A stretch of DNA of 51,588 bases from assembly GCA_947585425.1 (NCBI GenBank), contig CANPWZ010000012.1:1-51588 (forward strand), written 5' to 3'. Under the pieces are notes generated by a model. It searched no databases, had not been told where the DNA came from, and saw only the letters and a program-made list of their open reading frames with translations. Position 1 is the stretch's first letter. Each line of letters begins with the position of its first letter. Positions 21,306 through 37,633 of the stretch are shown here, piece by piece. The translations under genes and the position numbers were made by a program. Source of the stretch: an uncultured Oscillospiraceae bacterium. Its GTDB lineage: Bacteria; Bacillota; Clostridia; Oscillospirales; Oscillospiraceae.

Positions 21306-21313
21306 CCATCACG

Positions 21314-21342: not shown

Positions 21343-21386
21343 GTCTGCGGGCAAAATGTAAAATTTTTTCGAAAGGGAAATTTATC

Positions 21387-21415: not shown

Positions 21416-21487
21416 AATCGCTGTGTTTTGCACATCCTCCCTTTGGGATGTGCTTTCCTACTGACGATTTGAGAGGATTGATATTCC

Positions 21488-23059
21488 ATGAGCGCATCCA
21501 GAGAGAAAAAACAGCGGCAGGGCATCGGCCCCGATCCCAAAGCGGCGAAGGCCCAGAAGGAGCAGGCCGACCGCAGGCGCAAGACCATCATATACAGCAT
21601 AGCCGCCGTGGTGGCGGCGCTGGCGGTGGCGGCGCTGCTGGTGTGGAGCTCCGGCTTCGTCCAGAGCCGGATGACCGCCGGCACCGTGGGCGGCGAAAAG
21701 ATGTCGGTGGCCGATCTCAGCTACCACTACCACACCGCCCGCAACAATTACTTGGAACAGCTCTACCTCATGTACGCCCAGATGGGCTTGACCCCGAACC
21801 TCCCCGCCGACACCGACGTGTACGACCAGGAGAGCGGCAAGACCTATCACGACTACTATATGGAGACCGCCCTGGACAACGCCTCCTTCATCACCGCCCT
21901 CTACAACGAGGCCGTGGCCAACGGCTATAAGACGGCCGACGTCAAGGACGAGGTGGACGCCCGGATGGAGGAGATCAGGAGCGAAGCCGCATCCAGCGGG
22001 GCCGGCAGCTACGGCGCCTATCTGAAGGCGGCCTACGGCACCTATATCACCCGCGGCGCCCTGAAGGCCCAGGTAGAGCGGACCGCCCTGGCCAACAAAT
22101 ACTATTCCGACCACCAGCAGGAGCTGATGGACGCCTACACCCCGGAACAGCTGGACGACTATCTGGCCGAGCACCACGACGATCTGGACACCTTTGAGTA
22201 CACCGTGTTCTACGTGGCCGCCCCCACCGTGGAGACCAAGGACGCGGACGGCAACGACATCGACGAGGAGATCGTCGACCAGCGGAAAGAGGAGGCCATG
22301 GAGCAGGCCAAGGCCGACGCCGAGGAGATTCTCCTTGAGTACGCCGACGGCGGTGATTTCGACGGGATCGTGGAGGACTTCGGCCTCACCGAGACCTCCT
22401 GCCAGGATCACGCCTCCCGCGTGGGCTCCCAGATCAACGCCAGCCTGGTCTATCACGACAAGCTGATGGAGCTGAAGGAGGGCGAGAGCGCCGTAGTCGA
22501 GGCCACCAGCGGCTATTACGCCGTCGTCCTCCACAGCCGCGCTCTGGACACCAGCTCTACCCGCAGCGTCCGCCACATCCTCATCACCGCCGAGACCTCC
22601 ACCGACGCCGACGGCAAGACCGTCGTGACCGACGAGGCCTGGGCCGCGGCCCTGGAGAAGATCCAGGAGGTCAAGGCCGAGTACGAGGCCGGCGACAAGA
22701 CCGAGGAGTCCTTCGCCGCCCTGGCAAACAAGTACTCCGAGGACGGCGGCTCCAACACCAACGGCGGCCTGTATGAGGATGTGGAGAAGGGCCGGTTTGT
22801 CACCGAGTTCGACAGTTGGATGTACGACGAGGCCCGCCAGCCCGGCGACGTCAGCGACCCCATCGCTCACGGCAGGGACGACGAGTCCTCCAGCTACTAT
22901 GGCTACCACCTGATCTACTACGTGGGCGAGAGCGGCAAGACCGTCTGGGAGACGTCCGCCAAGACCGCCCTGTGTAACGACGATCTGGAGGCCTGGCGCA
23001 CCGATATGACCGCCCAGTACCCCGTCACCACCAACGACAACGCGAAGCTGGTCGACTGA
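21488..23059 (+). CDS. PrsA/SurA-like peptidyl-prolyl isomerase, membrane anchored
   Basis: A 523-residue exported foldase. Basic N-terminus (about 1-32), one transmembrane helix (about 34-54, IYSIAAVVAALAVAALLVW) without a lipobox, a SurA/PrsA-like N-terminal helical region to about 360, and a parvulin domain at about 365-490 (RSVRHILI, FAALANKYSEDGGSNTNGG, GDVSDPI, GYHLIYY). It probably helps fold secreted or wall proteins outside the membrane. A parvulin core insertion of about 20 residues carries Asp/Thr. Monocistronic with its own promoter and terminator. Confidence 0.9.
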   Translation: MSASREKKQRQGIGPDPKAAKAQKEQADRRRKTIIYSIAAVVAALAVAALLVWSSGFVQSRMTAGTVGGEKMSVADLSYHYHTARNNYLEQLYLMYAQMGLTPNLPADTDVYDQESGKTYHDYYMETALDNASFITALYNEAVANGYKTADVKDEVDARMEEIRSEAASSGAGSYGAYLKAAYGTYITRGALKAQVERTALANKYYSDHQQELMDAYTPEQLDDYLAEHHDDLDTFEYTVFYVAAPTVETKDADGNDIDEEIVDQRKEEAMEQAKADAEEILLEYADGGDFDGIVEDFGLTETSCQDHASRVGSQINASLVYHDKLMELKEGESAVVEATSGYYAVVLHSRALDTSSTRSVRHILITAETSTDADGKTVVTDEAWAAALEKIQEVKAEYEAGDKTEESFAALANKYSEDGGSNTNGGLYEDVEKGRFVTEFDSWMYDEARQPGDVSDPIAHGRDDESSSYYGYHLIYYVGESGKTVWETSAKTALCNDDLEAWRTDMTAQYPVTTNDNAKLVD

Positions 23060-23076
23060 TCCCCATAAGACAGGAC

Positions 23077-23112
23077 GAGAGGGTCCGGCATGAGCCGGAC
23101 CCTCTCTTATTT
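23077..23112 (+). terminator. Terminator after the foldase gene
   Basis: A 13-base-pair stem (23077-23089 with 23094-23106), ATGA loop and TTATTT. It lies between convergent genes and touches the stop codon of the PAP2 gene. Confidence 0.85.
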
Positions 23113-23683
23113 ACGCGTCCCGCTTTTCGCTCTTCCACGCGGCGTACCGCCGGACCACCGCGTCCACGATCAACGCCCCGATCAGCCCGCACAGGGTCCC
23201 GATGACGGCGCCCACGATCACGTCGGTGGGAAAATGGACACCCACGTACAGCCGGGACAGGGCCATCACCGCGGCCGCCGCCAGCGCCAGGGCCTTGGCC
23301 CACCTCTGGGGCAGGACGATGGCCAGCGCCACCGCGAATGCAAAGGCGCAGCAGGAGTGGCCCGACGGGAAGGAGTTGGGGTCGTGCTCCGCCACAAGGG
23401 CGGTGAAATCCGGGATGGTGAGCCAAGGCCTGGGCCGCATCACCAGGGGCTTGATGGTGAGGTTGGTCACCAGCAGCCCCAGGAACATCCCCGTGCCGGC
23501 AGCGGCCCCCGCCCTCCGGGTGGGCCGGAATAGCAGCATCAGGATGGCCAGGGCGATGAACAGCAGCCCGTGGTTCCCCAACTGGGTGTAAAAGGATAAA
23601 ACGGGCGTCAGCACGGGATTGCGCAGATGTTCCGCGATCCACACCAGCACCGACTCATCCCAGCCCTGGATCGTCTCCAGCAT
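23111..23683 (-). CDS. PAP2-family membrane phosphatase
   Basis: A 190-residue polytopic protein with the three phosphatase motifs of the PAP2/BcrC group: K78 with RPRP at 83-86, PSGHS at 106-110 and SRLYVGVHFPTD at 143-154 (catalytic His109 and His150). About five transmembrane helices. Likely a lipid or undecaprenyl pyrophosphate phosphatase on the outer face of the membrane, which would recycle the carrier used by TagO-type pathways; the substrate is not proven. Ribosome-binding site GGAGGGG. Divergent from the glycosyltransferase fusion. Confidence 0.92.
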   Translation of the reverse strand: MLETIQGWDESVLVWIAEHLRNPVLTPVLSFYTQLGNHGLLFIALAILMLLFRPTRRAGAAAGTGMFLGLLVTNLTIKPLVMRPRPWLTIPDFTALVAEHDPNSFPSGHSCCAFAFAVALAIVLPQRWAKALALAAAAVMALSRLYVGVHFPTDVIVGAVIGTLCGLIGALIVDAVVRRYAAWKSEKRDA

Positions 23684-23698
23684 AATACTTCCCCTCCC

Positions 23699-23727
23699 TT
23701 GACCATGGCGGGATCCTCATGTATAAT
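23699..23727 (+). promoter_or_regulatory. Sigma-A promoter of the glycosyltransferase-CsaB gene
   Basis: TTGACC (23699-23704), 17 bases, perfect TATAAT (23722-23727). The start codon is about 55 bases downstream. Confidence 0.75.
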
Positions 23728-23737
23728 CGATACAGAT

Positions 23738-23766
23738 ATTGTAGAGCATCCTAGGGCAAAACGCAA
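23738..23766 (-). promoter_or_regulatory. Sigma-A promoter of the PAP2 gene
   Basis: On the minus strand TTGCGT (23761-23766), 17 bases, TACAAT (23738-23743). It faces the plus-strand promoter: each would transcribe through the other. Confidence 0.6.
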
Positions 23767-23788
23767 GCATTTTCGGAGGACGATACAG

Positions 23789-26020
23789 ATGAAGGTCATC
23801 CATCTCATCAGCGGCGGCGACACCGGCGGCGCCAAGACCCACGTCCACTCCCTTCTGAGGGGCCTGAACCAGCATATCCAGGCGGACATAATCTGCTTTA
23901 CCGACGGGCCCTTCGTGTCCGAGGCCCGGGAGTTGGGCATCCGGGTGGACGTGATCCCCGGCGGCAACCCCATCTCCGTCCTGAATGAGCTGAAGGCCCG
24001 CATCCGCGCCGAAGGGTACGACATCATCCACTGCCACGGCGCCCGGGGCAATCTCATGGGCGCCCTGCTCCAGCGCTCCACCGGCCTGCCGGTGGTGTCC
24101 ACCGTCCACAGCGACCCCAAACTGGACTATATGGGCCGCCCCCTGGCCGCCGCAACCTTCGGCGTGCTCAACGGCTGGGCCCTGCGGGCCATCCGCTATC
24201 ACATCGGCGTGTCCGACGCCATGGCCGACCTGCTCATCGACCGGGGGCTCGACCCCCAGCAGATCTTCGCCATCTACAACGGCGTGGACCTGGAGGAGGA
24301 CCACACGCCGAAGCTGTCCCGGCGGGAATTCCTGGCCTCCCTGGGGCTGGACTGGCCGGAGGACGCCGTCATCGTGGGCATCGCCGCCCGGCTCAACCCG
24401 GTGAAGGACATCCCCACCCTGCTCCGGGGCTTCGCCGCCGCCCACGCCGTCCAGCCCCGGCTCCGGCTCATCGTCGCCGGGGACGGCCCGGAGGAGGTCG
24501 CCCTGCGGCAGCTGGCGGAGGAGCTGGGCGTGGCAGATGCGGTGTGCTTCGCCGGCTGGCTCACCGACACCGACAGCTTTTACAACGCCCTGGACGTAAA
24601 CGCCCTCACCTCCCTGTCCGAGACCTTCTCCTACGCCGTCACTGAGGGGGCCCGGTTCTCCCTGCCCATCGTGTCCACCGCCGTGGGGGGCATCCCCTAC
24701 CTGGTGGAGCACGCCGTCAACGGCTATCTGTTCCAGCCCGGGGACCATGAGGCCCTGGGCCGCCACCTGGCCGCCCTGGCCGCCGACCCCTCTCTCCGCC
24801 GCCGGCTGGGCGGGCGGCTGCTGGAGACGGTGCGGGCCAAATATACCCTGGACCGGACCATCCGGGACCAGTTGGATATTTACGAGACCATCCTCCGCCG
24901 CCACAGCCGCCCCAAGGGGCGGGACGGGGTGGTCCTCTGCGGGGCCTACGGCCAGAACAACGCCGGGGACGAGGCGGTGCTCCGGGCCATCCTGGGGGAA
25001 CTGCGGGCCATCGACCCGGACATGCCCCTGTGGGTGATGACCCGCAAGCCCAAAGAGGTCAAACGGCAGTACCGGGCGGGGGCGGTGTACACCTTCAACA
25101 TCCCCGGCTTCTGCCGCCGGATGGCCAAAAGCCGGCTGTACGTCAACGGCGGCGGCTCTCTGATCCAGGACGTGACCTCCCGCCGCTCCCTGTGGTTCTA
25201 TCTGTTCACCCTGTCCGCCGCCAGACGGCTGGGCTGCCGGGTGATGATGTACGGCTGCGGCATCGGCCCGGTGAATTCCCCGGATGGGAAGAAGCGGGCG
25301 GCCAGGGTCATCAGCAAAGGCGTGGACGCCATCACCCTGCGGGACCAGTACTCCATCCACACCCTGAGAGAGCTTGGGGTCAGCGGCCCGGAGATCGTGC
25401 TGGCCGCCGATCCCGCCCTCACCCTCCCCGCCGCCCCTCGGGAGACCGCCGACGCCCTGCTGCGCTCCGCGGGCCTCGCGCCCGAGCCGGACCAGCGGTA
25501 CCTTGGGATCACCGTCCGGCCCTGGCCGGGTTTTGAGGACAAGGCCGCCGAGTTCGCGGCCGCCGCCGAGTATGCCTATGAGGCGCTGGGCCTGATCCCG
25601 GTGTTCCTCCCCATCGTGGGGGATCTGGACACCGAAGCGGCCAGGACCGTGGCCGCCCGCATCCAAAAGGCCCCTTACGCCATCCTTCCCGCCTGCTCCC
25701 GCACCGAGGACACCATCGCCCTGTTCGCCCGGATGGAGGTGGTGCTGTCCATGCGGCTCCACGCCCTGATCTTCGCCGCCGGCCAGGGGGTGCCCGTCGT
25801 GGGGGCGGTGTACGACCCCAAGGTCAGCGCCTTTTTGGACGAGCTGGGGCAGGATCTGCAGATCCCCTTCGGCCAGGTGAGCGCCGGCAGGCTCATCCCC
25901 CTGCTCCGCGCCGCGGCGGAGCGGGCGGGCGACAAGGCCGCCCGGGAGGCCGGGACCGCCGAACTGCTCCGCCTGGAGGCCAACAACAGCGCCATGGCCC
26001 GAAAACTGTTGGAAATGTAA
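23789..26020 (+). CDS. csaB: Fusion of a GT4 glycosyltransferase and a CsaB polysaccharide pyruvyltransferase
   Basis: A 743-residue fusion. Residues 1-370 are a GT-B family 4 glycosyltransferase: GGxxGGAxxH-like start GGDTGGAKTHVHSL, GIAARLNPVKD near 197 and the E-x7-E signature (Glu278, Glu286). Residues about 379-743 are a CsaB-like pyruvyltransferase: LCGAYGQNNAGDEAVLRAIL near 383, YVNGGGSLIQD near 450, then SMRLHALIFAAGQGVP near 650. CsaB adds ketal pyruvate to secondary wall polymers that hold SLH-domain surface proteins. The start is the ATG at 23789 after CGGAGGA. Followed 16 bases later by another glycosyltransferase. Confidence 0.93.
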   Translation: MKVIHLISGGDTGGAKTHVHSLLRGLNQHIQADIICFTDGPFVSEARELGIRVDVIPGGNPISVLNELKARIRAEGYDIIHCHGARGNLMGALLQRSTGLPVVSTVHSDPKLDYMGRPLAAATFGVLNGWALRAIRYHIGVSDAMADLLIDRGLDPQQIFAIYNGVDLEEDHTPKLSRREFLASLGLDWPEDAVIVGIAARLNPVKDIPTLLRGFAAAHAVQPRLRLIVAGDGPEEVALRQLAEELGVADAVCFAGWLTDTDSFYNALDVNALTSLSETFSYAVTEGARFSLPIVSTAVGGIPYLVEHAVNGYLFQPGDHEALGRHLAALAADPSLRRRLGGRLLETVRAKYTLDRTIRDQLDIYETILRRHSRPKGRDGVVLCGAYGQNNAGDEAVLRAILGELRAIDPDMPLWVMTRKPKEVKRQYRAGAVYTFNIPGFCRRMAKSRLYVNGGGSLIQDVTSRRSLWFYLFTLSAARRLGCRVMMYGCGIGPVNSPDGKKRAARVISKGVDAITLRDQYSIHTLRELGVSGPEIVLAADPALTLPAAPRETADALLRSAGLAPEPDQRYLGITVRPWPGFEDKAAEFAAAAEYAYEALGLIPVFLPIVGDLDTEAARTVAARIQKAPYAILPACSRTEDTIALFARMEVVLSMRLHALIFAAGQGVPVVGAVYDPKVSAFLDELGQDLQIPFGQVSAGRLIPLLRAAAERAGDKAAREAGTAELLRLEANNSAMARKLLEM

Positions 26021-26036
26021 GATAGGAGGTCCCCCC

Positions 26037-27116
26037 ATGAAGCAGCTCCTCTGTCTCTCCCACACTCCCTGGCAGGCCCGGCCCGATCGGACCCAGCAGC
26101 TGCTCACCCGCTTTCCCGGCGTGGAGATCCTGCTGTTCGAGCCCGCCCCCGGGAAGGGGCAGCCCAGACAGCCGCAGGGCCGCCGGGTGCGGCCTCACCT
26201 CACGGTCTATCCCCTCCCCGCCCCCCTGCCCGCCGCCGGGGATCGCTCCGTCCTTGCCCTGCGGCGGCTGGAGAAGTGCTCCCTGTTCATCCAGGAGACC
26301 ATGGCCCGCCATCGGTTCCGGGAGCCGGTGCTGTGGTGCAATCATCCCGCCCAGGCCCCCTTCCTGGACGAGCTGGCCTACCGGGGCCTGGTGTACGACT
26401 GCCACCGGCTCTGGGAGGACAAGTGGCTGGAGGCGGAGAGCGAGCTTGCCGCCCACGCCGATGTGGTCCTGGCCGCCTCCCCCGCCCTGGCGGAGCGGCT
26501 CGCCCCCTGCAATCAGAACGCGGCGGTGCTGCCCAACGGCGCCAACCCTCTGATCTTTGACCAGCGGGATCTGCCCGTCCCTCCCGCCGTTGCCGCCCTG
26601 GAGGGCCGCCATCTGCTGTGCCGGGTGGGGGACCTCACCGCCCGGACGGAGCTGTCCCCCCTGATCCACGCTGCCCAGCGCCGGCTGGACTGGCAGTTCC
26701 TCCTGGTGGGGCGCTACACCCAGACGGCGGCGGACCGGCTGAAGGGGCTGGAAAACGTCCATCTGCTGGGCCCCGTAGAGCCCCTGGACGTGCCCGAGTA
26801 CCTGGCCCCCTGCGGTCTGCTGTTCGACCTGCTCCAGAGCGATCAGCGCCCCGCCGGAGTGGTCCCCATCCGGGTCTACGAGTATCTGGCCACCGGCAAG
26901 CCCATCGTGACCATGGCCCAACCCGGGCTGGACGAGCCCTTCCCCGACGCGGTGTACACCGCCTATGACGACGAGGGGTTCCTGTACCGCTGCGGTCTGG
27001 CCCTCCGAGAGGCCCCCTCCCGCGCCCCTCTCCGCCGGGAGTACGCCCGCCGCACCGCCTGGCCCAACCGGGCGGCGGAGGCCATGGGCCTGATGGAGAC
27101 CGCCGGGCTGTTCTGA
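26037..27116 (+). CDS. GT-B glycosyltransferase
   Basis: A 359-residue protein of the GT4-like/TuaH-type group. LLCLSHTPWQARPDRTQQLL at the start and VLPNGANPLIFD near 161 are typical; the C-terminal half has LLVGRYTQ near 221, LGPVEPLDVPEYLAPC near 245 and VPIRVYEYLATGKPIV near 283 with the Glu of the donor site. No transmembrane helix. It probably acts with the upstream fusion on one envelope polysaccharide. AGGAGG ribosome-binding site; there is no clear terminator after it. Confidence 0.88.
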   Translation: MKQLLCLSHTPWQARPDRTQQLLTRFPGVEILLFEPAPGKGQPRQPQGRRVRPHLTVYPLPAPLPAAGDRSVLALRRLEKCSLFIQETMARHRFREPVLWCNHPAQAPFLDELAYRGLVYDCHRLWEDKWLEAESELAAHADVVLAASPALAERLAPCNQNAAVLPNGANPLIFDQRDLPVPPAVAALEGRHLLCRVGDLTARTELSPLIHAAQRRLDWQFLLVGRYTQTAADRLKGLENVHLLGPVEPLDVPEYLAPCGLLFDLLQSDQRPAGVVPIRVYEYLATGKPIVTMAQPGLDEPFPDAVYTAYDDEGFLYRCGLALREAPSRAPLRREYARRTAWPNRAAEAMGLMETAGLF

Positions 27117-27205
27117 CAAATCCGCCGTTTTCGCCACGGTTTGTCCCTTCGGGGCATACATCCTTGTGGAAGCCTACGAAAAGCCCAAAAAATCGTTTTT
27201 ACCCC

Positions 27206-27234
27206 TTGATTTGTGCGCATCTTTGCGATAGAAT
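27206..27234 (+). promoter_or_regulatory. Sigma-A promoter of the purine operon
   Basis: TTGATT (27206-27211), 17 bases, TAGAAT (27229-27234). The leader to purE would be about 180 bases. Confidence 0.6.
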
Positions 27235-27266
27235 AGGGGCAGAAATAACGCGAAGGGGTGCTGAAC

Positions 27267-27350
27267 ATGGGGGTCCGTACTCTTCCGATCCTGCTGTGTT
27301 TTTCCGGCACCATTGCGCCCAGATCCTACCACAATATCACCACAGGCTGA
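27267..27350 (+). CDS. Possible leader peptide of the purine operon
   Basis: ATG to TGA, 27 residues beginning MGVRTLPILLCF. A GAAGGGG ribosome-binding site lies 8 bases upstream and the promoter about 30 bases upstream. The stop codon falls in the 5' arm of the following hairpin. There is no run of one amino acid that would name an effector. It may be chance, but the arrangement matches a translated attenuation leader. Confidence 0.35.
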   Translation: MGVRTLPILLCFSGTIAPRSYHNITTG

Positions 27351-27380
27351 CCGCATCCCGCGGCCAGCCTGCAAATTTTT
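27343..27380 (+). promoter_or_regulatory. Candidate transcription attenuator in the purine operon leader
   Basis: CAGGCTG pairs with CAGCCTG (27343-27349, 27365-27371) and inside this CCGC pairs with GCGG, with one A-C mismatch. CAAATTTTTG follows. The T run starts four bases after the stem, so it is not a perfect terminator. An alternative pairing of the GGGGG at 27381-27385 with downstream CCCC could compete. Confidence 0.35.
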
Positions 27381-27421
27381 GGGGGATTCGTCAAAAAAGC
27401 CCCGGAAAAGGAGTTTTTGCC

Positions 27422-27916
27422 ATGAAAAAAGTGGCCGTTATCATGGGCTCGGACAGCGACTGGCCGGTGGTCAAGGGGGCCTGCGCCCAGCTCAGGGAGT
27501 TCGGCATCCCCTATGAGGCCCACATCCTCAGCGCCCACCGCACCCCGGCGGAGGCGGCGGCGTTCGCCAAAAGCGCCCGGCAGAGCGGCTTCGGGGTGCT
27601 GATCTGCGCCGCCGGCATGGCCGCCCACCTGGCGGGGGTCTTCGCTGGGAACTCCACGCTGCCGGTCATCGGCATCCCCATGAAGGGGGGCGCTATGGAC
27701 GGGCTGGACGCCCTGCTCGCCACGGTGCAGATGCCCTCGGGCATCCCGGTGGCCACGGTGGCCATCAATGGGGCGAAAAACGCCGCCGTGCTGGCCGCCC
27801 AGATCCTGGCCGTGTCCGACGACGATCTGGCCGCCAAGCTGGACGCCGCCCGGGTCAAAATGGCGGAACAGATCGCCGAGAAGGAGGCAAAGCTCCAGGC
27901 GGAGCTGGCCGAATAA
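27422..27916 (+). CDS. purE: N5-CAIR mutase PurE (class I)
   Basis: A 164-residue PurE that isomerises N5-carboxyaminoimidazole ribonucleotide to CAIR. Motifs: MGSDSDWPV at 8-16, LSAHRTP near 37 (catalytic His), [14 protein letters not shown] near 63 and [13 protein letters not shown] near 103. The class I type normally works with PurK, which is not in the window. The frame is open upstream to 27164, but ATG 27422 has AAAAGGAG and the normal N-terminus. First gene of the purine operon. Confidence 0.96.
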
Positions 27917-27950
27917 ACCTGTTTATATCAACTGAAAGGGAGTTTTTGAT

Positions 27951-28661
<711 letters not shown>

Positions 28662-28670
28662 GGAGTACTT

Positions 28671-30095
28671 ATGGGCGGATTTTTCGGCGCCGTCTCCAAG
28701 CGGGACGTGACCCTTGACATCTTTTTCGGCGTGGACTACCACTCCCACCTGGGCACCCGCCGGGGCGGCATGATCATCCACGATGAGCGGGACGGCTTCC
28801 AGCGCCAGATCCACTCCATCGAGAACACCCCCTTCCGCACCAAGTTCGAGAAGGACCTCCGGGACTTCCACGGCCAGGCGGGCATCGGCTGCATCAGCGA
28901 CACCGACCCCCAGCCCCTGATGGTCCGCTCCCACCTGGGCGTGTACGCCATCACCACCGTGGGCATCATCAACAACGCCGACGAGCTGGTGGAGCGGCAT
29001 TTCGCCCAAGGGGGCAACCACTTTATGGCCATGAGCTCCGGCAAGGTGAACTCCACCGAGCTGGTGGCCGCCCTCATCAACCAGGGCAGCGACTTTGTGG
29101 ACGGCATCCGCCGGGCCCAGGAGCAGGTGGACGGCTCCCTGACCCTGCTGATCCTCACCGAAAAGGGGGAGATCCTGGCCGCCCGGGACAAGGTGGGCCG
29201 CCTGCCGGTGCTGGTGGGCAAAAACGGGGAGGGCCACTGCGTGTCCTTCGAGTCCTTCGCCTACCACAAGCTGGGCTACGAGGACGCCTACGAGCTGGGC
29301 CCCGGCGAGATCGTCAAGCTGGACGCCAACGGCTGGGGCACCGTCTCCCCCGCCGGCAACAGGATGAAGATCTGCGCTTTCCTCTGGACCTATTACGGCT
29401 ACCCCAACTCCAACTATGAGGGGGTCAACGTGGAGGTCATGCGGGGCCGCAACGGCCACATCATGGCCCGGAACGAGCGCGCCCGGGGCGATCTGCCCGA
29501 CGTGGACTACGTGGCCGGCGTGCCCGACTCCGGCGTGCCCCACGCCATCGGCTACGCCAACGAGAGCGGCATCCCCTTCGCCCGGCCCTTTGTGAAATAC
29601 ACCCCCACCTGGCCCCGGTCCTTCATGCCCGCCGACCAGACCACCCGCAACCAGGTGGCCAAGATGAAGCAGATCCCCGTGCCCGAGCTCATCGAGGGCA
29701 AAAAGCTGCTGTTCGTGGACGACTCCATCGTCCGGGGCACCCAGCTCAGGGAGACGGTGGAATTTCTCTACGCCAGCGGCGCGAAGGAGGTCCACATGCG
29801 CTCCGCCTGCCCCCCCATCATGTACGGCTGCAAATTCCTGAACTTCTCCCGCAGCAACTCCGACATGGAGCTCATCGCCCGCAGGACCGTCCAGGAACTG
29901 GAGGGGGACGAGGGCCAGAAGTATCTGGAGGAGTATTCCGACGTGCGCACGGAGCGGGGCCAATGCCTGCTGAAGGCCATCCGGGAGTCCCTGGGCTTCG
30001 ACTCCCTGGGCTATCAGTCCCTGGACGGCCTGCTGGAGGCCATCGGCATCGACCGGGACAAGATCTGTACCTACTGCTGGAACGGAAAAGAATAA
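28671..30095 (+). CDS. purF: PurF-like amidophosphoribosyltransferase lacking the catalytic cysteine
   Basis: A 474-residue protein aligned with PurF over its full length. The phosphoribosyltransferase half is intact: PRPP loop LLFVDDSIVRGTQ near 346 and GVPDSGVPHAIGYANESGIPF near 285. Cysteines that bind Fe-S in B. subtilis PurF have partners: KIC near 235, GCK near 385 and the C-terminal CTYC. But residue 2 is Gly, not the Cys nucleophile, and by eye the HNG and SDTE glutaminase positions are also changed (TVGIINN, VNSTE). An in-frame stop just upstream rules out a processed propeptide. It could use free ammonia or a partner, or be regulatory. Confidence 0.85.
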   Translation: MGGFFGAVSKRDVTLDIFFGVDYHSHLGTRRGGMIIHDERDGFQRQIHSIENTPFRTKFEKDLRDFHGQAGIGCISDTDPQPLMVRSHLGVYAITTVGIINNADELVERHFAQGGNHFMAMSSGKVNSTELVAALINQGSDFVDGIRRAQEQVDGSLTLLILTEKGEILAARDKVGRLPVLVGKNGEGHCVSFESFAYHKLGYEDAYELGPGEIVKLDANGWGTVSPAGNRMKICAFLWTYYGYPNSNYEGVNVEVMRGRNGHIMARNERARGDLPDVDYVAGVPDSGVPHAIGYANESGIPFARPFVKYTPTWPRSFMPADQTTRNQVAKMKQIPVPELIEGKKLLFVDDSIVRGTQLRETVEFLYASGAKEVHMRSACPPIMYGCKFLNFSRSNSDMELIARRTVQELEGDEGQKYLEEYSDVRTERGQCLLKAIRESLGFDSLGYQSLDGLLEAIGIDRDKICTYCWNGKE

Positions 30096-30111
30096 ACTGG
30101 AGGTTTGACCC

Positions 30112-31155
30112 ATGGAAAACTCCCATTCCGCGTCCTACGCCGCCGCGGGGGTGGACGTCACCGCCGGGTACGAGGCGGTGCGCCGCATCCGGCCCATGGT
30201 GGAGTCCACCTACATCCCCGGCGTGATGGGCACCATCGGCGGCTTCGGCGGCCTGTTCGCCCCCGACTTCGCCGGCATGAAAAAGCCGGTGCTGGTCTCC
30301 GGCACCGACGGCGTGGGCACCAAGCAGCGCATCGCCCAGCTGATGGGCAAAAACGACACCGTGGGCATCGACTGCGTGGCCATGTGCGTCAACGACATCG
30401 TCTGCGGCGGGGCCGCCCCCCTGTTCTTCCTGGACTACATCGCCTGCGGCAAAAACGACCCCGCCCGCATCGCCGAGCTGGTGTCCGGCGTCGCCGAGGG
30501 CTGCCGGCAGGCCGAGTGCGCCCTGGTGGGCGGCGAGACCGCCGAGCACCCCGGCACCATGGCCCCCGAGGACTACGACCTGGCTGGCTTCTCCGTCGGC
30601 ATCGTGGACGAGGAGAAGATCATCGACGGCTCCAAACTGGCGGAGGGGGATACCCTCATCGGCCTCGCCTCCTCCGGGGTCCACTCCAACGGGTTCTCCC
30701 TGGTGCGAAAGGTCTTTGACGTGGAGCGCGCCGACCTGAGCGCCCCCGTGGCCGAACTGAACGGAAAGAGCCTGGGCGAGGCCCTGCTGGCCCCCACCCG
30801 CATCTACGTGCGGGCCGTCAAGGCCATGCTCAAAGCCGGGGTGGACATCCACGCGGTGAGCCACATCACCGGCGGCGGGTTCTATGAGAACGTCCCCCGG
30901 ATGATGAAAGACGGCCTCGCCGCCCGCATCGACGTGGCCTCCTTCCCCCGCCCCGCCATCTTCGATCTGATCCAGAAGGCGGGGGACATCCCCACCCGGG
31001 ATATGTACAACACCTTCAACATGGGCGTCGGCATGGTGCTGGCCGTGCCCGCGGCTCAGGCGGAGGCCGCCATGAAAACGGCCAGGTCCGCCGGCGACGT
31101 TCCCTACGTCATCGGCTCGGTGGTCAGGGGCGACGGGGGCGTGGAGCTGGTATGA
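30112..31155 (+). CDS. purM: AIR synthetase PurM
   Basis: A 347-residue phosphoribosylformylglycinamidine cyclo-ligase that makes AIR. Motifs: LVSGTDGVGTKQRIA at 62-76, IDCVAMCVNDIVCGGAAPLFFLDY near 86 (as two parts), GGETAEHPGTM near 143 and HITGGGFYENVPRM near 246. It starts with SYAAAGVDVTAGYEAV as usual. It overlaps purN by ATGA, so the two are translationally coupled. Confidence 0.97.
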   Translation: MENSHSASYAAAGVDVTAGYEAVRRIRPMVESTYIPGVMGTIGGFGGLFAPDFAGMKKPVLVSGTDGVGTKQRIAQLMGKNDTVGIDCVAMCVNDIVCGGAAPLFFLDYIACGKNDPARIAELVSGVAEGCRQAECALVGGETAEHPGTMAPEDYDLAGFSVGIVDEEKIIDGSKLAEGDTLIGLASSGVHSNGFSLVRKVFDVERADLSAPVAELNGKSLGEALLAPTRIYVRAVKAMLKAGVDIHAVSHITGGGFYENVPRMMKDGLAARIDVASFPRPAIFDLIQKAGDIPTRDMYNTFNMGVGMVLAVPAAQAEAAMKTARSAGDVPYVIGSVVRGDGGVELV

Positions 31156-31778
31156 AAAAGATCGCCGTGCTGGTGTCCGGCGGCGGCACCAATCTCCAGG
31201 CCCTCATCGACGCCCAGGGCCGGGGGGAGATCGTGAACGGGGAGATCGCCGCCGTCATTTCGTCCAAGCCCGGGGCCTACGCCCTGGAGCGGGCCGCCAG
31301 GGCCGGCATCCCCGGCTGTGTGATGGCCCGGAAGGAGTACGCGGACAGCCGCTCCTACACCGTGGCCCTGCGGGATAAGCTGAGGGAGCTGGGCATCGAC
31401 CTGGTGGTGCTGGCGGGGTTCATGATCATCCTCACGGAGGAACTGGTGGAGGCCTATCCCAACGCCATCCTCAACGTCCACCCCGCCCTGATCCCCTCCT
31501 TCTGCGGAGAGGGGTTCTACGGGCTCCACGTCCACGAAAAGGCCCTGGAGTACGGGGTGAAGGTGTCCGGCGCCACGGTGCATTTCGTCAGCGCGGAGTG
31601 CGACGGCGGGCCCATCGTGCTGCAAAAGGCCGTCCCCGTGGAGGAGGGCGACACCCCGGAGGCCCTCCAGCGCCGGATCATGGAGCAGGCGGAGTGGAAG
31701 CTGCTGCCCAGAGCCGTGTCCCTGTTCTGCCAGGACAGGCTGCAAGTGGACGGACGGATCGTACACATTACGGACTGA
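31152..31778 (+). CDS. purN: GAR formyltransferase PurN
   Basis: A 208-residue formyl-tetrahydrofolate-dependent enzyme that formylates glycinamide ribonucleotide. Motifs: VLVSGGGTNLQALID at 6-20, LAGFMIILTEELV near 88, NVHPALIPSFCGEGFYGLHVHE near 108 (two segments; catalytic His) and VSGATVHFVSAECDGGPI near 137 (catalytic Asp). The ATG overlaps the purM stop. Confidence 0.96.
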   Translation: MKKIAVLVSGGGTNLQALIDAQGRGEIVNGEIAAVISSKPGAYALERAARAGIPGCVMARKEYADSRSYTVALRDKLRELGIDLVVLAGFMIILTEELVEAYPNAILNVHPALIPSFCGEGFYGLHVHEKALEYGVKVSGATVHFVSAECDGGPIVLQKAVPVEEGDTPEALQRRIMEQAEWKLLPRAVSLFCQDRLQVDGRIVHITD

Positions 31779-31791
31779 GGAGGAATCTGCT

Positions 31792-32496
31792 ATAATCGAC
31801 CTGAATCAATACCTGCGGGACACCGCCTACCCCGGCCGGGGCATCGCGCTGGGCCGGACGGCGGACGGCAAAAAGGCCGCCATCGCCTATTTCATCATGG
31901 GCCGCAGCGAGAACAGCCGCAACCGGGTGTTCGAGGCCACCGACGACGGCATCCGCACCAGAGCTTATGACGAGAGCAAGATGACCGACCCCAGCCTCAT
32001 CATCTACCACCCGGTGCGAAACATGGGCCCCGTGATGACCATCGTCACCAACGGCGACCAGACCGACACCATCCGGGACGCCATCCGGGAGGGCCACTGC
32101 TACCGCCACGCCCTGAACACCCGCACCTTCGAGCCCGACGGCCCCAACTGGACCCCCCGCATCTCCGGCGTGGTCAAGCCCGACGGCTCCTACAACCTGT
32201 CCATCCTGAAATCCCTGGACGGCGACCCCTCCTGCTGCTGCCGGTACTTCTTCGAATACGACAAGCCCGTCCCCGGCGTGGGCCACTTCATCTCCACCTA
32301 CCAGGGGGACGGCAATCCCCTGCCCTCCTTCGAGGGAGAGCCCAAGCGGGTGGCCATCATCGCCTCCACCGCGAAGGAGTGGGCGGACCAGCTTTGGGCC
32401 AGCCTCAACGAGGACAACAAGGTCTCCCTGTTCGTGGAATTCATCGACCTGGAGAGCAAGGCCCGGGACACGGTCATCCTTAACAAACACCAGTGA
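31792..32496 (+). CDS. purO: IMP cyclohydrolase, PurO-like, with apparent ATA start
   Basis: A 234-residue protein of the archaeal-type IMP cyclohydrolase group (COG3363-like), which closes FAICAR to IMP. The conserved start YPGRGIALGRTADGKK, the motif FIMGRSENSRNRVFE and VTNGDQTDTIRDAI are seen. The frame is open to the purN stop, but no ATG, GTG or TTG occurs until ATG 31897, which would cut off the conserved N-terminus. AGGAGG at 31778-31783 is eight bases before ATA (31792-31794), where relatives have Met. I therefore start it at ATA; an AUA start or a changed ATG is possible. Confidence 0.8.
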   Translation: MIDLNQYLRDTAYPGRGIALGRTADGKKAAIAYFIMGRSENSRNRVFEATDDGIRTRAYDESKMTDPSLIIYHPVRNMGPVMTIVTNGDQTDTIRDAIREGHCYRHALNTRTFEPDGPNWTPRISGVVKPDGSYNLSILKSLDGDPSCCCRYFFEYDKPVPGVGHFISTYQGDGNPLPSFEGEPKRVAIIASTAKEWADQLWASLNEDNKVSLFVEFIDLESKARDTVILNKHQ

Positions 32497-32578
32497 CAGC
32501 GACCCCTGACCCGATGGGCTGGATCCGTGAGGCATATGCGTTCGCCGCTTCCAAGCGGCCCGGAAAGTGAGGGTCAAT

Positions 32579-33109
32579 ATGGAGGAATTGAGTTTCGTCA
32601 CGCCCGCGATCGAGCACGCGGACGCCATCATGGACTTCCGCCGGGAGATGCTGGACGCCGGCTCCTCCTTCGACGGCTGCAACTGCCTGGAAAACTACGC
32701 CCGGGCGGAGGACTGGCTGGAGCACATTCACGAGGCCCGTTCGGAGGAACTGATGGCCGCAAGGCACAAGGTGGCCTCCGACCTCTGGCTGGCGGTGCGC
32801 AAGTCCGACGGCCGGATCGTGGGAATCATCGACTTCCGGCACAGCCTGGACCACCCCATCCTGGCCATGTGGGGCGGGCACATCGGCTACTGCGTGCGCC
32901 CCAGCGAGCGCCGAAAGGGCTACGCCAAGGAGATGCTCCGCCTGGACTTGGAGCACTGTAAGGCTTATGGCCTTGACAGAGTTTTGGTCACCTGCGACGC
33001 CGGGAACACCGCCAGTGAGCGGACCATTCTGGCCAACGGCGGGGTCTTTGAAAAGGAAGTACAGGTGGACGGCGAGACCGTCCGCCGGTTCTGGATCGAG
33101 TTGAAATGA
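32579..33109 (+). CDS. GNAT-family N-acetyltransferase
   Basis: A 176-residue GNAT protein. The acetyl-CoA binding segment VRPSERRKGYAKEML near 107 has the Arg-x-x-Gly-x-Ala pattern, followed by CDAGNTASERTILANGG near 141. The acceptor is unknown. The ATG at 32579 follows AGTGAGGG; a GTG four codons upstream is an alternative. It lies 82 bases after the IMP cyclohydrolase gene and overlaps the ASCH gene by four bases; it is a guest in the purine operon. Confidence 0.85.
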   Translation: MEELSFVTPAIEHADAIMDFRREMLDAGSSFDGCNCLENYARAEDWLEHIHEARSEELMAARHKVASDLWLAVRKSDGRIVGIIDFRHSLDHPILAMWGGHIGYCVRPSERRKGYAKEMLRLDLEHCKAYGLDRVLVTCDAGNTASERTILANGGVFEKEVQVDGETVRRFWIELK

Positions 33110-33576
33110 CCGGGCCGGAACTGTGGGCGGAATTTGCCGCCAAGACCGGTGTGAACGCGGACTACGACGGCTGGGCCTTCGGAGACGACCCGGACGGGCT
33201 GGCGGCCTTGGTCCGCGCCGGCGTCAAGACCGCCACATCCTCCGCCTTTCCTCTCTATCAGCTGGAGGGCGGGCCCCTGCCGAAGACGGGGGGATACAGC
33301 GTCATCCTGGACAGCCGGGAGGAGGCTGTGTGCGTCATCCGCACCACCAAGGTGTATACGGTCCCCTTCCGGGCCGTCTCCCCGGACCACGCCCGGAAAG
33401 AGGGCGAGGGGGACATGAGCCTGGCCCACTGGCGGGCGGTCCACCGCCGGTTCTTTGCCCGGGAGCTGGCCGGGGCCGGGCTCGTCTTTGACGAGGATAT
33501 GCCGGTGGTCTGCGAGGAATTTGAGGTCGTTTACCCTTCAAAACGGTTTACCATTCATCAAGACAAGGAGTGCTGA
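33106..33576 (+). CDS. ASCH-domain protein
   Basis: A 156-residue ASCH (PUA-like) protein. GVKTATSSAFPLYQLEGGPLP near 40 (two parts), GYSVILDSREEAVCVIRTTKVYTVPF near 62 (in parts) and the ending ARELAGAGLVFDEDMPVVCEEFEVVY are typical of the YqfB/ASCH group. Such domains may bind RNA or modified nucleosides; the role here is unknown. ATGA overlap with the GNAT gene. Together they interrupt the purine genes. Confidence 0.85.
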   Translation: MTGPELWAEFAAKTGVNADYDGWAFGDDPDGLAALVRAGVKTATSSAFPLYQLEGGPLPKTGGYSVILDSREEAVCVIRTTKVYTVPFRAVSPDHARKEGEGDMSLAHWRAVHRRFFARELAGAGLVFDEDMPVVCEEFEVVYPSKRFTIHQDKEC

Positions 33577-33578
33577 AT

Positions 33579-34754
33579 ATGACGGAACTGGAACTGAAAT
33601 ACGGCTGCAATCCCAATCAGAAGCCGGCGGCCATCTACATGGAGGGCGGCCGGGAGCTGCCCCTGGAGGTGCTGAACGGCAAGCCGGGGTACATCAACTT
33701 CATGGACGCGCTGAATTCCTGGCAGCTGGTGAAGGCACTGAAAAAGGCCACCGGCCTGCCCGCCGCAGCCTCCTTCAAGCACGTCTCCCCCGCCGGGGCC
33801 GCCCTGGGACTGCCTCTGACCGACGTGGAGAAGCACATCTACTTCGTGGACGACCCGGAGCCCTCCCCCATCGCCTGCGCTTACATCCGGGCCAGAGGGG
33901 CCGACCGGCTGTGCTCCTACGGCGACTGGGCCGCCCTCAGCGATGTGTGCGACGCCTCCACCGCCCGGTATCTGGCTCTGGAGGTGTCCGACGGCGTCAT
34001 CGCCCCCGGCTACACCGACGAGGCCCTGGCCATCCTGAAAACCAAGCGCAAGGGCGGCTATAACGTGGTGAAGATCGACCCGGACTACGAGCCCGACCCC
34101 ATCGAGCGGCGGAACATCTACGGCATCACCTTCCAGCAGGGCTACAATGCCTTTGACATCAACGAGGGCCTGCTGGAGAACATCGTCACCGAGAACCGGG
34201 AGCTGCCCCAGGCGGCCAAACATGACCTGCTGCTCTCCCTCATCACCCTGAAATACACCCAGTCCAACTCGGTGTGCTACGTGAAGGACGGCATGACCAT
34301 CGGCGTGGGGGCCGGCCAGCAGAGCCGCATCCACTGCACCCGCCTCGCCGGAAACAAGGCGGACAACTGGTGGCTCCGCCAGCACCCCAAGACCCTGGGC
34401 CTGCAATTCGTGGACGGCATCCGCCGGCCCGACCGGGACAACGCCATCGACGTGTACCTCTCCGACGAGTGGGAGGACGTGCTGGCCGACGGCGTGTGGC
34501 AGACCACCTTTAAGACGCGGCCCGAGCCCCTGACCCCCGCCGAGAAAAAGGAGTGGATCGCAAAGCTGTCCGGCGTGTCCGTGGGCTCCGACGCTTTCTT
34601 CCCCTTCGGCGATAACGTGGAGCGGGCCCGGAAGTCCGGCTGCCAGTATATCGCCCAGCCCGGCGGTTCCATCCGGGACGACAATGTCATTGCGACCTGC
34701 AACAAATACGGCATCGTGATGGCCTTCACCGGGATGAGGCTGTTCCATCATTGA
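33579..34754 (+). CDS. purH: AICAR formyltransferase, stand-alone (PurH C-terminal domain only)
   Basis: A 391-residue protein equal to the AICAR transformylase part of PurH, without the N-terminal IMP cyclohydrolase domain (about 200 residues). The catalytic Lys67-His68 lie in FKHVSPAGAALG (the usual KHxxP motif); GAGQQSRIHCTRLAG near 252 and SDAFFPFGDN near 340 are conserved, and the C-terminus has PGGSIRDDNVI. It formylates AICAR; the ring closure is done by the PurO-like protein. ATG 33579 follows AAGGAG. Confidence 0.93.
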   Translation: MTELELKYGCNPNQKPAAIYMEGGRELPLEVLNGKPGYINFMDALNSWQLVKALKKATGLPAAASFKHVSPAGAALGLPLTDVEKHIYFVDDPEPSPIACAYIRARGADRLCSYGDWAALSDVCDASTARYLALEVSDGVIAPGYTDEALAILKTKRKGGYNVVKIDPDYEPDPIERRNIYGITFQQGYNAFDINEGLLENIVTENRELPQAAKHDLLLSLITLKYTQSNSVCYVKDGMTIGVGAGQQSRIHCTRLAGNKADNWWLRQHPKTLGLQFVDGIRRPDRDNAIDVYLSDEWEDVLADGVWQTTFKTRPEPLTPAEKKEWIAKLSGVSVGSDAFFPFGDNVERARKSGCQYIAQPGGSIRDDNVIATCNKYGIVMAFTGMRLFHH

Positions 34755-34773
34755 TCGATCGAGGTGCTGTGAG

Positions 34774-36030
34774 ATGAAAGTATTAGTCGTGGGCTCCGGC
34801 GGCCGTGAGCACGCCATCTGCTGGAAACTGGCCCAGTCCCCCAAGGTCACGGAGCTGTACTGCGCCCCCGGCAACGGCGGCATCGCCCAGGTCGCCAAAT
34901 GCGTGGACGTGAAGGCCACCGACGTGGAGGGCATGGTGAAGTGGGCGAAGGACAACGCCATGGACTTCGTGGTGGTGGCCCCTGACGACCCCCTGGCCAT
35001 GGGCATGGTGGACGCCCTGGAGGATGCGGGCGTCCCTGCCTTCGGGCCCCGGAAGAACGCCGCCATCGTGGAGGCCAGCAAGGCGTTCTCCAAGGAGCTG
35101 ATGAAGAAGTATCACATCCCAACCGCAAAGTATCAAACCTTTACAGAGCTTGCCGCGGCGCTGGATTACATCGACAAGCAGGGCGCGCCCATCGTGGTCA
35201 AGGCCGACGGCCTGGCCCTGGGCAAGGGAGTCACCGTGGCCGCCACCGAGGACGAGGCCAAGCTGGCCGCCGCCGAGGCCATGGGGGGCCGCAAGTTCGG
35301 GGACGCAGGCTCCACCCTGGTCATCGAGGAGTGCATGACCGGCCCGGAGGTGACGGTGCTGGCCTTTGTGGACGGGGAGCACGTCTCTCCCATGCCCGCC
35401 AGCCAGGACCATAAGCGGGCCTACACCGGCAACAAGGGCCCCAACACCGGCGGCATGGGCGCCATCTCTCCCCCGCCCCAGTACACCCCGGAGATCGCGA
35501 AGCGCTGCATGGACGAGATCTTCCTGCCCACCGTGGCGGCCCTCAAAGCGGAGGGCCGGCCCTTCAAGGGCGTGTTGTATTTCGGGCTGATGCTCACCCC
35601 CGACGGCCCCAAGGTGGTGGAGTATAACGCCCGCTTCGGCGACCCGGAGTGCCAGGCGGTGCTGTCCCTGCTGGACAGCGACCTGCTGGACATCATGCTG
35701 GCCTGCCGGGAGGGCGCCCTGGACCGGCTGGACATCCGCTGGAAAAACGAGGCCGCCTGCTGCCTGGTGCTGGCCTCCGGCGGCTACCCCCTGGAGTACA
35801 AGAAGGGCTATCCCATCTCCGGCCTGGAGGAGGCGGGCCAGACCGCCACGGTGTTCCACGCGGGGACAAAGCTGGAGAACGGGCGGTATCTCACCAGCGG
35901 CGGCCGGGTGCTGGGCGTCACCGCCATCGCCCCCACGCTGGACGAGGCCATCGAGGGGGCCTACGCCGCGGGGGCGCACATCTCCTTTGAGGATATGCAC
36001 TACCGCACCGACATCGGCCACGCGTTTTAA
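34774..36030 (+). CDS. purD: GAR synthetase PurD
   Basis: A 418-residue ATP-grasp ligase that joins phosphoribosylamine and glycine. The start VLVVGSGGREHAICWKL, ATP-grasp motifs VKADGLALGKGVT near 145 and KGPNTGGMGAISP near 215, and the metal-binding VEYNARFGDPECQ near 275 are seen. Normal length. Last gene of the operon; a strong terminator follows. purB, purK, purL, purQ and purS are not in the window. Confidence 0.97.
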   Translation: MKVLVVGSGGREHAICWKLAQSPKVTELYCAPGNGGIAQVAKCVDVKATDVEGMVKWAKDNAMDFVVVAPDDPLAMGMVDALEDAGVPAFGPRKNAAIVEASKAFSKELMKKYHIPTAKYQTFTELAAALDYIDKQGAPIVVKADGLALGKGVTVAATEDEAKLAAAEAMGGRKFGDAGSTLVIEECMTGPEVTVLAFVDGEHVSPMPASQDHKRAYTGNKGPNTGGMGAISPPPQYTPEIAKRCMDEIFLPTVAALKAEGRPFKGVLYFGLMLTPDGPKVVEYNARFGDPECQAVLSLLDSDLLDIMLACREGALDRLDIRWKNEAACCLVLASGGYPLEYKKGYPISGLEEAGQTATVFHAGTKLENGRYLTSGGRVLGVTAIAPTLDEAIEGAYAAGAHISFEDMHYRTDIGHAF

Positions 36031-36045
36031 GGCGTTTCAGCGCAT

Positions 36046-36081
36046 AAAAGCACCGCTTTCCGCCAGGAAAGCGGTGCTTTT
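36046..36081. terminator. Bidirectional terminator between purD and cls
   Basis: A long perfect stem AAAAGCACCGCTTTCC with GGAAAGCGGTGCTTTT and a four-base loop. It has A and T runs on both sides, so it can serve purD (plus) and cls (minus). Confidence 0.9.
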
Positions 36082-36091
36082 GCGTGTGTTT

Positions 36092-37633
36092 TCAGAGCAG
36101 CGGGGCCAGCACCCGGAGGACCGCCCACAGCGCCCGGTGGTACCAGGGGACGTTTTTGCAGTCCGCCAGGGTGACCATCAAACTCCTGGTCTGGGTGTCC
36201 AGAAAGTCCTCCCGGATGTCGGCCACCGAGGGGGTGCCGTATAGCAGCACGCCGTTTTCAAAGTGGAGGAACATGCTGCGGTAGTCCAGATTGACGGTGC
36301 CCACCGTGGCGTACTTGTCGTCCACCACAAAGTTCTTGGCGTGGACGAACCCCGGCTCGTACTCGAATATCTGCACCCCCGCCTCCAGCAGCTCCCGGTA
36401 GTGGGAGCGGGTCAGCTCGAACACCGTCTTTTTGTCGGGGATGTGTGGGGTGATGATCCGCACGTCCACCCCGCTCTTGGCCGCCGAGGTGAGGGCGGTG
36501 GCCAGGGAGTAGTCGAGGGCCAGATAGGGGGTGGTGATGTAGACGTATTTTTTGGCCCGGTAAATCAGGTTCAGGTAGACGGTCTGCCCCACCGCCTCGT
36601 TGTCCCAGGGGCAGTCCTGATAGGGCTGGACATAGCCGCTTGCCCCGCACCCCGCCGGGACGGGCCGGAAGGGGGCGAAGTCCTCCTCCTGGCTGTTGGT
36701 GAAGTCCCACATGGCCATAAAGGACACCGCCATGGACCACACCGCGTCCCCCTCCAGCCGGATGGCCGAGTCCTTCCAGTGGCCGAACCGGGTCTTGACG
36801 TTGATGTACTCGTCCGCCATATTGATCCCGCCGGTGAAGGCCACCCTGCCGTCTACGATCAGGTATTTCCGGTGATCCCGGTTGTTCTGCCGCATGGACA
36901 CCACCGGCACGAACCGGTTGAAGGCCCGGCAGTGGATGCCCTCCCCCTCCAGGCGGGCGGCATAGTCGCCGGGCAGGGTGTTGATGGAGCCGATGTCATC
37001 GTAGATGACGCGGACCTCAAGCCCCTGCTTCACCTTCTCCCGCAGCACCTCCAGCACCGAGTTCCACATCTGGCCCTCCTCGATGATGAAGTACTCGATG
37101 AAGATATACCGCTCCGCGCCTTTCAGGGCGGCCAGGATGTCGTCCATGCAGAGGTCGCCCACGGGATAGTATTTGGTCTGGGTGTTGCCGTACACCGGGC
37201 AGTGGGCGGTCTGCTCCAGATAGTGGGCCATGCAGCCGGCGTCCTCCCCGGCCAGCAGGCTCAGGGAGGCGGAGCGGCCGCACTCCTCCCCCAGGCTGCG
37301 GCTGATCTTCTTCTCCATGGTGCGCAAACGGCGCTGGTTGAATCTGGACAGCCGGTTGCCCCCCAGCAGCAGATAGGCCACCGAGCCAAAGGGCATGAAT
37401 GCCAGGATGATGATGATCCAGCCGATCTTATAGCCGGGATTGCTCTTGCTGCCCACCACCCACAGCACCAGCACCGCGGACAGAGCCACCAGGATCCAGC
37501 CGTAGACGGGGTTGATGGATTGCAGGAACACCGCCAGGGCGAAATACAGCGCCAGCTGGAGGATGATGAGCACCGCCACGATGCCCAGCCGGTGGAACAG
37601 CACCTTTCCGATCTTGTTCAGGATACGATACAT
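36092..37633 (-). CDS. cls: Cardiolipin synthase (PLD superfamily)
   Basis: A 513-residue membrane phospholipase-D-type cardiolipin synthase. Two to three N-terminal transmembrane helices (about 17-92) precede two HKD motifs: H254-K256-D261 (HRKYLIVDG) and H431-K433-D438 (HAKNFVVDD). It joins two phosphatidylglycerol molecules. Start codon ATG at 37631-37633 with GGAG upstream. It lies 36 bases after dnaE and may be the last gene of that run. Confidence 0.96.
   Translation of the reverse strand: MYRILNKIGKVLFHRLGIVAVLIILQLALYFALAVFLQSINPVYGWILVALSAVLVLWVVGSKSNPGYKIGWIIIILAFMPFGSVAYLLLGGNRLSRFNQRRLRTMEKKISRSLGEECGRSASLSLLAGEDAGCMAHYLEQTAHCPVYGNTQTKYYPVGDLCMDDILAALKGAERYIFIEYFIIEEGQMWNSVLEVLREKVKQGLEVRVIYDDIGSINTLPGDYAARLEGEGIHCRAFNRFVPVVSMRQNNRDHRKYLIVDGRVAFTGGINMADEYINVKTRFGHWKDSAIRLEGDAVWSMAVSFMAMWDFTNSQEEDFAPFRPVPAGCGASGYVQPYQDCPWDNEAVGQTVYLNLIYRAKKYVYITTPYLALDYSLATALTSAAKSGVDVRIITPHIPDKKTVFELTRSHYRELLEAGVQIFEYEPGFVHAKNFVVDDKYATVGTVNLDYRSMFLHFENGVLLYGTPSVADIREDFLDTQTRSLMVTLADCKNVPWYHRALWAVLRVLAPLL

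Follow-up and report, generated by a model that had tools for sequence, protein, structure and literature searches.

A PurF homologue without its glutaminase residues in the purine operons of Oscillospiraceae, a candidate ammonia-dependent enzyme

PurF is a textbook glutamine amidotransferase. That a single step can be served by two enzymes, one ammonia-dependent and one glutamine-dependent, is familiar from AsnA and AsnB, whose folds are unrelated. Earlier work on crenarchaea described a PurF-like protein, PurF', that is without the cysteine nucleophile and is clustered with purine genes (Brown et al. 2011; PMC3261824). Ammonia-dependent PRPP aminotransfer is put forward there as one possibility, as a proposal only, and each crenarchaeon is described as having one canonical purF gene and one PurF' gene (PMC3261824). 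The same paper cites work in which E. coli PurF with its cysteine replaced lost the use of glutamine and could still use ammonia (cited in PMC3261824).

The present work concerns a bacterial PurF homologue (the variant) encoded on a 51,588-nucleotide stretch of DNA (the window) from an uncultured Oscillospiraceae bacterium. No published report of it was found in the literature searched, in which only PMC3261824 bears on the subject. Comparison shows a predicted dead glutaminase site beside an apparently intact phosphoribosyltransferase (PRTase) site, what appears to be replacement in the purF slot of the operon, and an association of canonical PurF with AmtB and GOGAT. The variant is probably an ammonia-dependent housekeeping PRPP aminotransferase, the glutamine-dependent PurF being kept for times of ammonium scarcity.

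A PurF fold with a changed glutaminase domain

The features of the locus are collected in Table 1. The variant protein begins MGGFFG, with Gly2 where PurF has Cys1. The purC stop, a TAA at 28659-28661 overlapped by an AGGAG, lies in frame as the fourth codon upstream of the variant start, so that at most three codons could be added and a Cys-bearing propeptide cannot fit; a missed start or propeptide is thereby ruled out. The first-pass annotation had placed a glycine at the catalytic position and had taken the upstream stop to bar a propeptide, and both readings hold, with Gly2 found in all 134 distinct variants.

Table 1. Features of the purine operon in the window, with NCBIfam matches.
Feature	Coordinates	Strand	Remark
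purE	27422..27916	+	TIGR01162, 191.7 bits, over cut-off
purC	27951..28661	+	TIGR00081, 245.6 bits, over cut-off; stop bounds variant frame
Glutaminase-less PurF homologue (variant)	28671..30095	+	474-aa ORF
N-terminal class II glutaminase-fold domain, residues 1-230	28671..29360	+	catalytic residues lost, purifying selection
Phosphoribosyltransferase domain, residues 231-474	29361..30092	+	PRPP loop, flexible loop, Fe-S cysteines
purM	30112..31155	+	TIGR00878, 426.5 bits, over cut-off
purN	31152..31778	+	TIGR00639, 210 bits, over cut-off
purO-like IMP cyclohydrolase	31897..32496	+	NF003167, 42.8 bits, below cut-off of 150
Stand-alone AICAR formyltransferase (here purV)	33570..34754	+	NF005492, 701 bits, over cut-off
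purD	34774..36030	+	TIGR00877, 543 bits, over cut-off

The overall two-domain fold of PurF is present in the variant. Among solved structures, B. subtilis PurF chains are closest to it in sequence (best E 1.8e-44), and it matches the NCBIfam purF model (TIGR01134) at 173.8 and 183.8 bits, without reaching the equivalog cut-off of 350.

Residues were compared between 134 variants and 68 canonical sequences, and also between 72 thinned variants plus 16 rows from outside the family and 69 canonicals. Arg73, Asn101 and Asp127, which we take to be the glutamine-site residues in E. coli numbering, are present in at least 68 of the 69 canonical PurF sequences. In all 72 thinned variants the R73-Y74-T76 stretch falls inside a deletion, Val, Ile or Thr stands at the N101 position, and another residue takes the place of D127. 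The PRPP loop DDSIVRGT (residues 350-357) is kept in all 134 variants except at I353, found in 130. The flexible loop is changed and reads KYTPTWPRSF (residues 309-318), with a distinctive TPTW stretch; its Arg, Phe, Arg and Lys are kept in 134 of 134 variants and Gln323 in 133. Cys 235, 387, 466 and 469, putative Fe-S ligands of the B. subtilis type, are likewise kept in all 134. The first two lie opposite C236 and C382 of 1ao0 (counted by hand, with ligand numbers presumed for the B. subtilis enzyme), and the other two were matched to cluster ligands via the canonical sequences. The initial by-eye impression, of further glutaminase positions replaced while the PRPP loop and four cluster cysteines were kept, is thus confirmed across the family.

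Outside the family, 17 variant rows were sought (16 regions and one viral contig), of which 16 were aligned. The PRPP loop is kept in these 16 by construction, since the selection motifs include it; the seventeenth row (L265), which the motifs missed, reads DDSVVRGT and keeps the four cysteines. Residue 2 is Gly in 11 of the 16 rows and Ser in the other five, the Arg and Asn glutamine-site residues are absent from every one, and the Asp column is non-Asp in the 14 rows listed.

The former glutaminase domain has invariants of its own, namely D16, D22-Y-H-S-H-L-G28, H48 and I75-S76 in a 51-row alignment, and its median dN/dS is 0.12, against 0.07 for the PRTase domain (from 42 usable pairs out of 43). 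A decaying pseudogene is ruled out by the family conservation together with the low dN/dS, and we infer that the domain has been retooled rather than left to decay.

The purF slot and the retention of the pathway

Two groups were found in a sample of 150 genomes of the window's family: variants, with at least 55% identity to the window's protein (fragments included), and canonical PurF, with about 30%. A single branch splits them in a quick tree of a 59-row subsample (41 variant, 18 canonical; SH-aLRT 100). When a match over the 350-bit cut-off is counted as canonical, plus G139 with its fragments, 39 genomes have both genes, 53 the canonical only, 31 the variant only and 27 neither, these absence calls coming largely from draft genomes. 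The variant is therefore borne by 70 of the 150, of which 31 are without a canonical PurF over the cut-off; among near-complete variant bearers (completeness of at least 90%) the figure is 17 of 48.

Named carriers among the best 80 of 587 confirmed loci include Pseudoflavonifractor, Flavonifractor, Oscillibacter, Intestinimonas, Agathobaculum, Lawsonibacter and Dysosmobacter, several of these genomes being metagenome assemblies. When a profile built from 51 variants was searched against 299 genomes of the phylum, 17 of them scored at least 750 bits, including the window's own and one congener, and among the matches listed none lay between 750 and 239 bits. Canonical PurF was also present in all 15 of the outside-family variant genomes. 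The variant and canonical genes stand in tandem at three loci (L151, L154 and L257).

A viral contig (IMGVR_UViG_3300005613_000033; L254:10001-11377) encodes a 458-aa variant that is 52% identical and keeps the PRPP loop and cluster cysteines; its neighbours match phage RNA ligase, HNH nucleases and deoxyribonucleotidase. A search of phage collections gave 19 records, the best of which (65%) is an unannotated 12.9-kb scaffold labelled "Bacteriophage sp.", possibly of bacterial origin.

The window's operon runs purE, purC, variant, purM, purN, purO-like, two small genes, AICAR formyltransferase and purD, and the variant is indeed, as first annotated, its sole purF-like gene. For the purposes of counting, a gene was taken to be in the operon when at least two of purE, M, N, O, V and D lay within 6 kb on the same strand. 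By this measure, 17 of 20 variant-only regions (from 31 genomes) have the variant inside the operon, as do 16 of 21 further mixed-class regions, window included, and 77 of 80 genome_contigs loci (the best 80 of 587 confirmed). Canonical purF is in the operon at 12 of the 20 loci fetched from canonical-only genomes (of 56 copies), and at 2 of 21 (of 39) from genomes with both, these two being the variant tandems L151 and L154. On these gene orders, the variant's hold on the purF slot suggests replacement in place, or relocation.

Several other features of these loci were recorded. The last two purine steps in the window's operon are represented by the PurO-like protein and the stand-alone AICAR formyltransferase (purV), and the two small genes (32567-33576) look GNAT-like and ASCH-like by eye, with no NCBIfam match at 1e-5. 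Rfam searches at gathering thresholds found no riboswitch in window positions 20000-40000; across seven further loci they picked up nothing but one T-box and, at a different locus, one tRNA. A 6S RNA lies at 21093-21304 of the window (52.8 bits, above the gathering score). In many loci (L187, L191, L193, L198, L199, L201, L203, L207, L208, L215 and L220-L223) the variant is preceded by a purC-like gene that has diverged from the window's purC (33-37% identity). This gene also stands beside the variant at L255 and L256, where there is no operon, and the two may move as a pair. No NCBIfam match at 1e-40 was found for the L255 copy.

Outside the family the arrangement is different. Only one of 16 regions has the variant in a purine operon (L257, where both genes stand in tandem in reversed order), and in four (L261, L262, L264 and L266; two by HMM, two by eye) it follows carB, the gene for the carbamoyl-phosphate synthase large subunit. 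The carB-linked subgroup may have a different job or a different induction. Together with the TPTW stretch of the flexible loop, this placing off the operon in 15 of 16 regions could be taken to mean that the variant is a phosphoribosyltransferase that uses a different amine donor or makes a different product and was recruited beside purine genes. For the window's group we regard this as improbable, considering the exact purF slot and the genomes that have no other PurF, a point that does not extend to the carB-linked subgroup.

It is also conceivable that a glutaminase encoded elsewhere, for instance a GlmS-, PurL- or CarA-type domain, docks on the variant and passes ammonia to its PRTase domain. 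The PurF profile does match further proteins in these genomes, which are probably other class II amidotransferases, and the dead glutaminase domain is conserved enough to serve as a docking surface. Against this, the gap between purC and the variant is at most 172 bases in the 14 regions with both genes, of 20 variant-only regions, and of the 17 gaps between the variant and purM in variant-only regions, 15 do not exceed 146 bases, the other two being 313 and 573 bases. These short gaps leave little room for a partner gene in the variant-only operons, and feeding by a partner is judged unlikely.

The retention of PurL provides a test of whether the variant is idle, in which case variant-only genomes should look like those with neither gene. 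The counts show otherwise. PurL was matched in 39 of 39 genomes with both, 50 of 53 canonical-only, 31 of 31 variant-only and 7 of 27 with neither, and, at a completeness of at least 90%, in 31/31, 35/35, 17/17 and 1/15, respectively. Some of these matches are pieces at contig ends; the PurL cut-off is exceeded in 28 of the 31 variant-only genomes (including all 17 near-complete ones) and in 4 of the 7 matched genomes that have neither gene. The difference between the variant-only and neither classes has Fisher probabilities of 5e-10 overall and 3e-8 among near-complete genomes, phylogeny not being controlled. The variant can thus stand without any canonical PurF over the cut-off in a genome that keeps PurL, as it does in all 31.

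Most variant-only assemblies are drafts in many contigs, and a canonical purF might have been missed in them while the variant lay idle. This is scarcely credible, since they include a single 4.3-Mb contig and a six-contig assembly, 17 of 48 near-complete variant bearers have no canonical PurF over cut-off, and dN/dS is low. Nor does it seem other than very improbable that the variant is a non-catalytic regulator or subunit of canonical PurF. Such a role would suit the 39 of 70 variant-bearing family genomes and the 15 of 15 outside-family genomes that also have canonical PurF, and the three tandem loci; the 31 genomes with PurL and no canonical PurF over cut-off stand against it, as do PRTase residues that are nearly all invariant. 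The first-pass annotation had offered an ammonia-dependent or partner-fed enzyme, or a regulator. The ammonia-dependent enzyme gains from the operon slot, the PurL-keeping genomes, the purifying selection and the apparently intact PRTase site, and the pure regulator is disfavoured because PurL is kept in 31 of 150 genomes that are without a canonical PurF over cut-off.

Glutamine is probably available to variant-only genomes, because all 17 near-complete ones match the glutamine synthetase domain, some weakly and in frames of about 700 aa.

Canonical PurF beside AmtB and GOGAT

The initial annotation had started from the premise that the genome might lack a canonical PurF, and proposed a genome-wide search for one. 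Run on the source genome (98% complete, 58 contigs), that search overturned the premise: a canonical purF lies at C9:28820-30151 (503 bits, cut-off 350), with up to 23 residues ahead of its Cys, and the variant as the genome's only PurF is ruled out. The neighbours of this gene are nitrogen-assimilation genes: one encodes the large subunit of glutamate synthase, another an ammonium transporter extended at its C terminus, and a third, by eye, is gltD. A canonical purF that stands outside the operon in such company is a clue to the function of the variant.

The same arrangement recurs in the family. With a proximity threshold of 13 kb, chosen once, canonical purF is near amtB or GOGAT in 25 of 39 genomes with both, versus 3 of 56 canonical-only copies. 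In the remaining 14 of these 39 genomes canonical purF lies away from both; they include the two other genomes of the window's genus, where AmtB was not found. Four loci (L159-L161 and L183) show a same-strand amtB-purC-purF order, with canonical purF downstream of amtB and a window-type purC, as if the purC-purF pair had moved beside amtB.

Whole-genome counts point the same way. AmtB over cut-off occurs in 28 of 39 genomes with both, 35 of 53 canonical-only and 4 of 31 variant-only genomes (30, 36 and 6 when every match is counted), and GOGAT (PF04898, including short two-piece forms) in 32, 35 and 6, respectively. At a completeness of at least 90%, the comparison of both with variant-only is 22/31 versus 4/17 for AmtB (p 0.002), 24/31 versus 6/17 for every AmtB match (p 0.006) and 28/31 versus 4/17 for GOGAT (p 5e-6); both AmtB and GOGAT are present in 4 of the 17 near-complete variant-only genomes. 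Genome tallies are 77 for AmtB, 80 for GOGAT and 70 for the variant. In two variant-only genomes, G044 and G132, AmtB is matched weakly and in part, at 104 and 96 bits, which is under the cut-off; a first count of partial matches omitted these two and G126 but took in G077 and G144. The control genes, AsnA and the glutamate-type dehydrogenases of PF00208, showed no difference between the both and variant-only classes, and median genome sizes are similar.

The phylogeny-controlled link of canonical PurF with AmtB and GOGAT is modest and varies with the tree. A PurL tree covered 59 of the 70 variant-bearing genomes (60 regions fetched, the partial G050 left out). Of its 14 pairs, canonical PurF and "AmtB or GOGAT" agreed in direction in 9.5 and were opposed in 0.5 (median p 0.004), and 12 pairs gave a median p of 0.039 among genomes at least 80% complete. 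Singly, AmtB gave 0.039 and GOGAT 0.031, each becoming 0.07 at that completeness. On a rebuilt PurL tree there were 12 pairs, 7.3 to 7.5 versus 0.6, with a median p of 0.039; AmtB by itself, all its matches included, gave 0.125. On a tree of the variant protein the link was not significant (p 0.125-0.22); that tree held 56 of 60 loci, de-duplication having dropped L007, L008, L012 and L017 (G145, G066, G118 and G022), all from genomes with canonical PurF. Linked genes can be lost in one deletion, and part of the association could arise in this way. The association thus backs a module and does not prove regulation.

AsnA was found in 60 of 70 variant-bearing versus 32 of 53 canonical-only genomes, and PF00208 dehydrogenases in 63 of 70 versus 33 of 53, with fragments counted and phylogeny not controlled in either comparison; this excess is in keeping with ammonia-rich habitats. 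Ammonia-dependent AsnA is over cut-off in 112 of the 150 family genomes; of the 14 genomes used as controls, E. coli and Bacteroides ihuae are the two with a match.

A proposed role and its relation to known systems

In the proposed mechanism, the variant would make 5-phosphoribosylamine from PRPP and, as the likely donor, free ammonia. Its former glutaminase domain would be catalytically dead and kept as a folded, selected part, perhaps for structure, gating or a new ligand site. In habitats presumed to be rich in ammonia it would act as the operon's housekeeping enzyme for the first purine step. Canonical glutamine-dependent PurF, where kept, would tend toward an ammonium-scarcity module with AmtB and GOGAT. 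The cell could then switch nitrogen donor at the committed step, possibly under regulation by ammonium supply. More tentatively, one might picture a two-tier nitrogen economy, in which an ammonia-run variant does the housekeeping, canonical PurF has moved into the AmtB-GOGAT set and is kept or lost with it, and the variant has also reached other families, carB neighbourhoods and a phage.

If this is true, the committed purine step can run on ammonia, purine supply is tied to ammonium in gut bacteria, and the 2011 PurF' proposal becomes testable in bacteria. There is also a consequence for annotation, as variant-only genomes fall under the PurF equivalog cut-off and may therefore be miscalled purine auxotrophs.

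With canonical PurF (TIGR01134; B. subtilis 1gph and 1ao0, E. coli 1ecb) the variant has in common the full-length fold, the PRPP loop, the operon slot, the flexible-loop Arg/Phe/Gln/Arg/Lys and the four B. subtilis-type Fe-S cysteines. It differs in being without the N-terminal Cys, Arg73, Asn101, Asp127 and propeptide, in the TPTW of its flexible loop, in scoring 174-184 bits against the 350-bit cut-off and in forming a separate group in the tree. PurF', as described, is always paired with canonical PurF, whereas only 39 of 70 variant-bearing genomes have both. The Cys-replaced E. coli enzymes, as cited there, are laboratory mutants, and the variant is a natural lineage. Finally, the likeness to AsnA and AsnB lies in having two enzymes per step; the difference is that the variant is itself a PurF homologue that has, on the residues compared, apparently lost its glutaminase.
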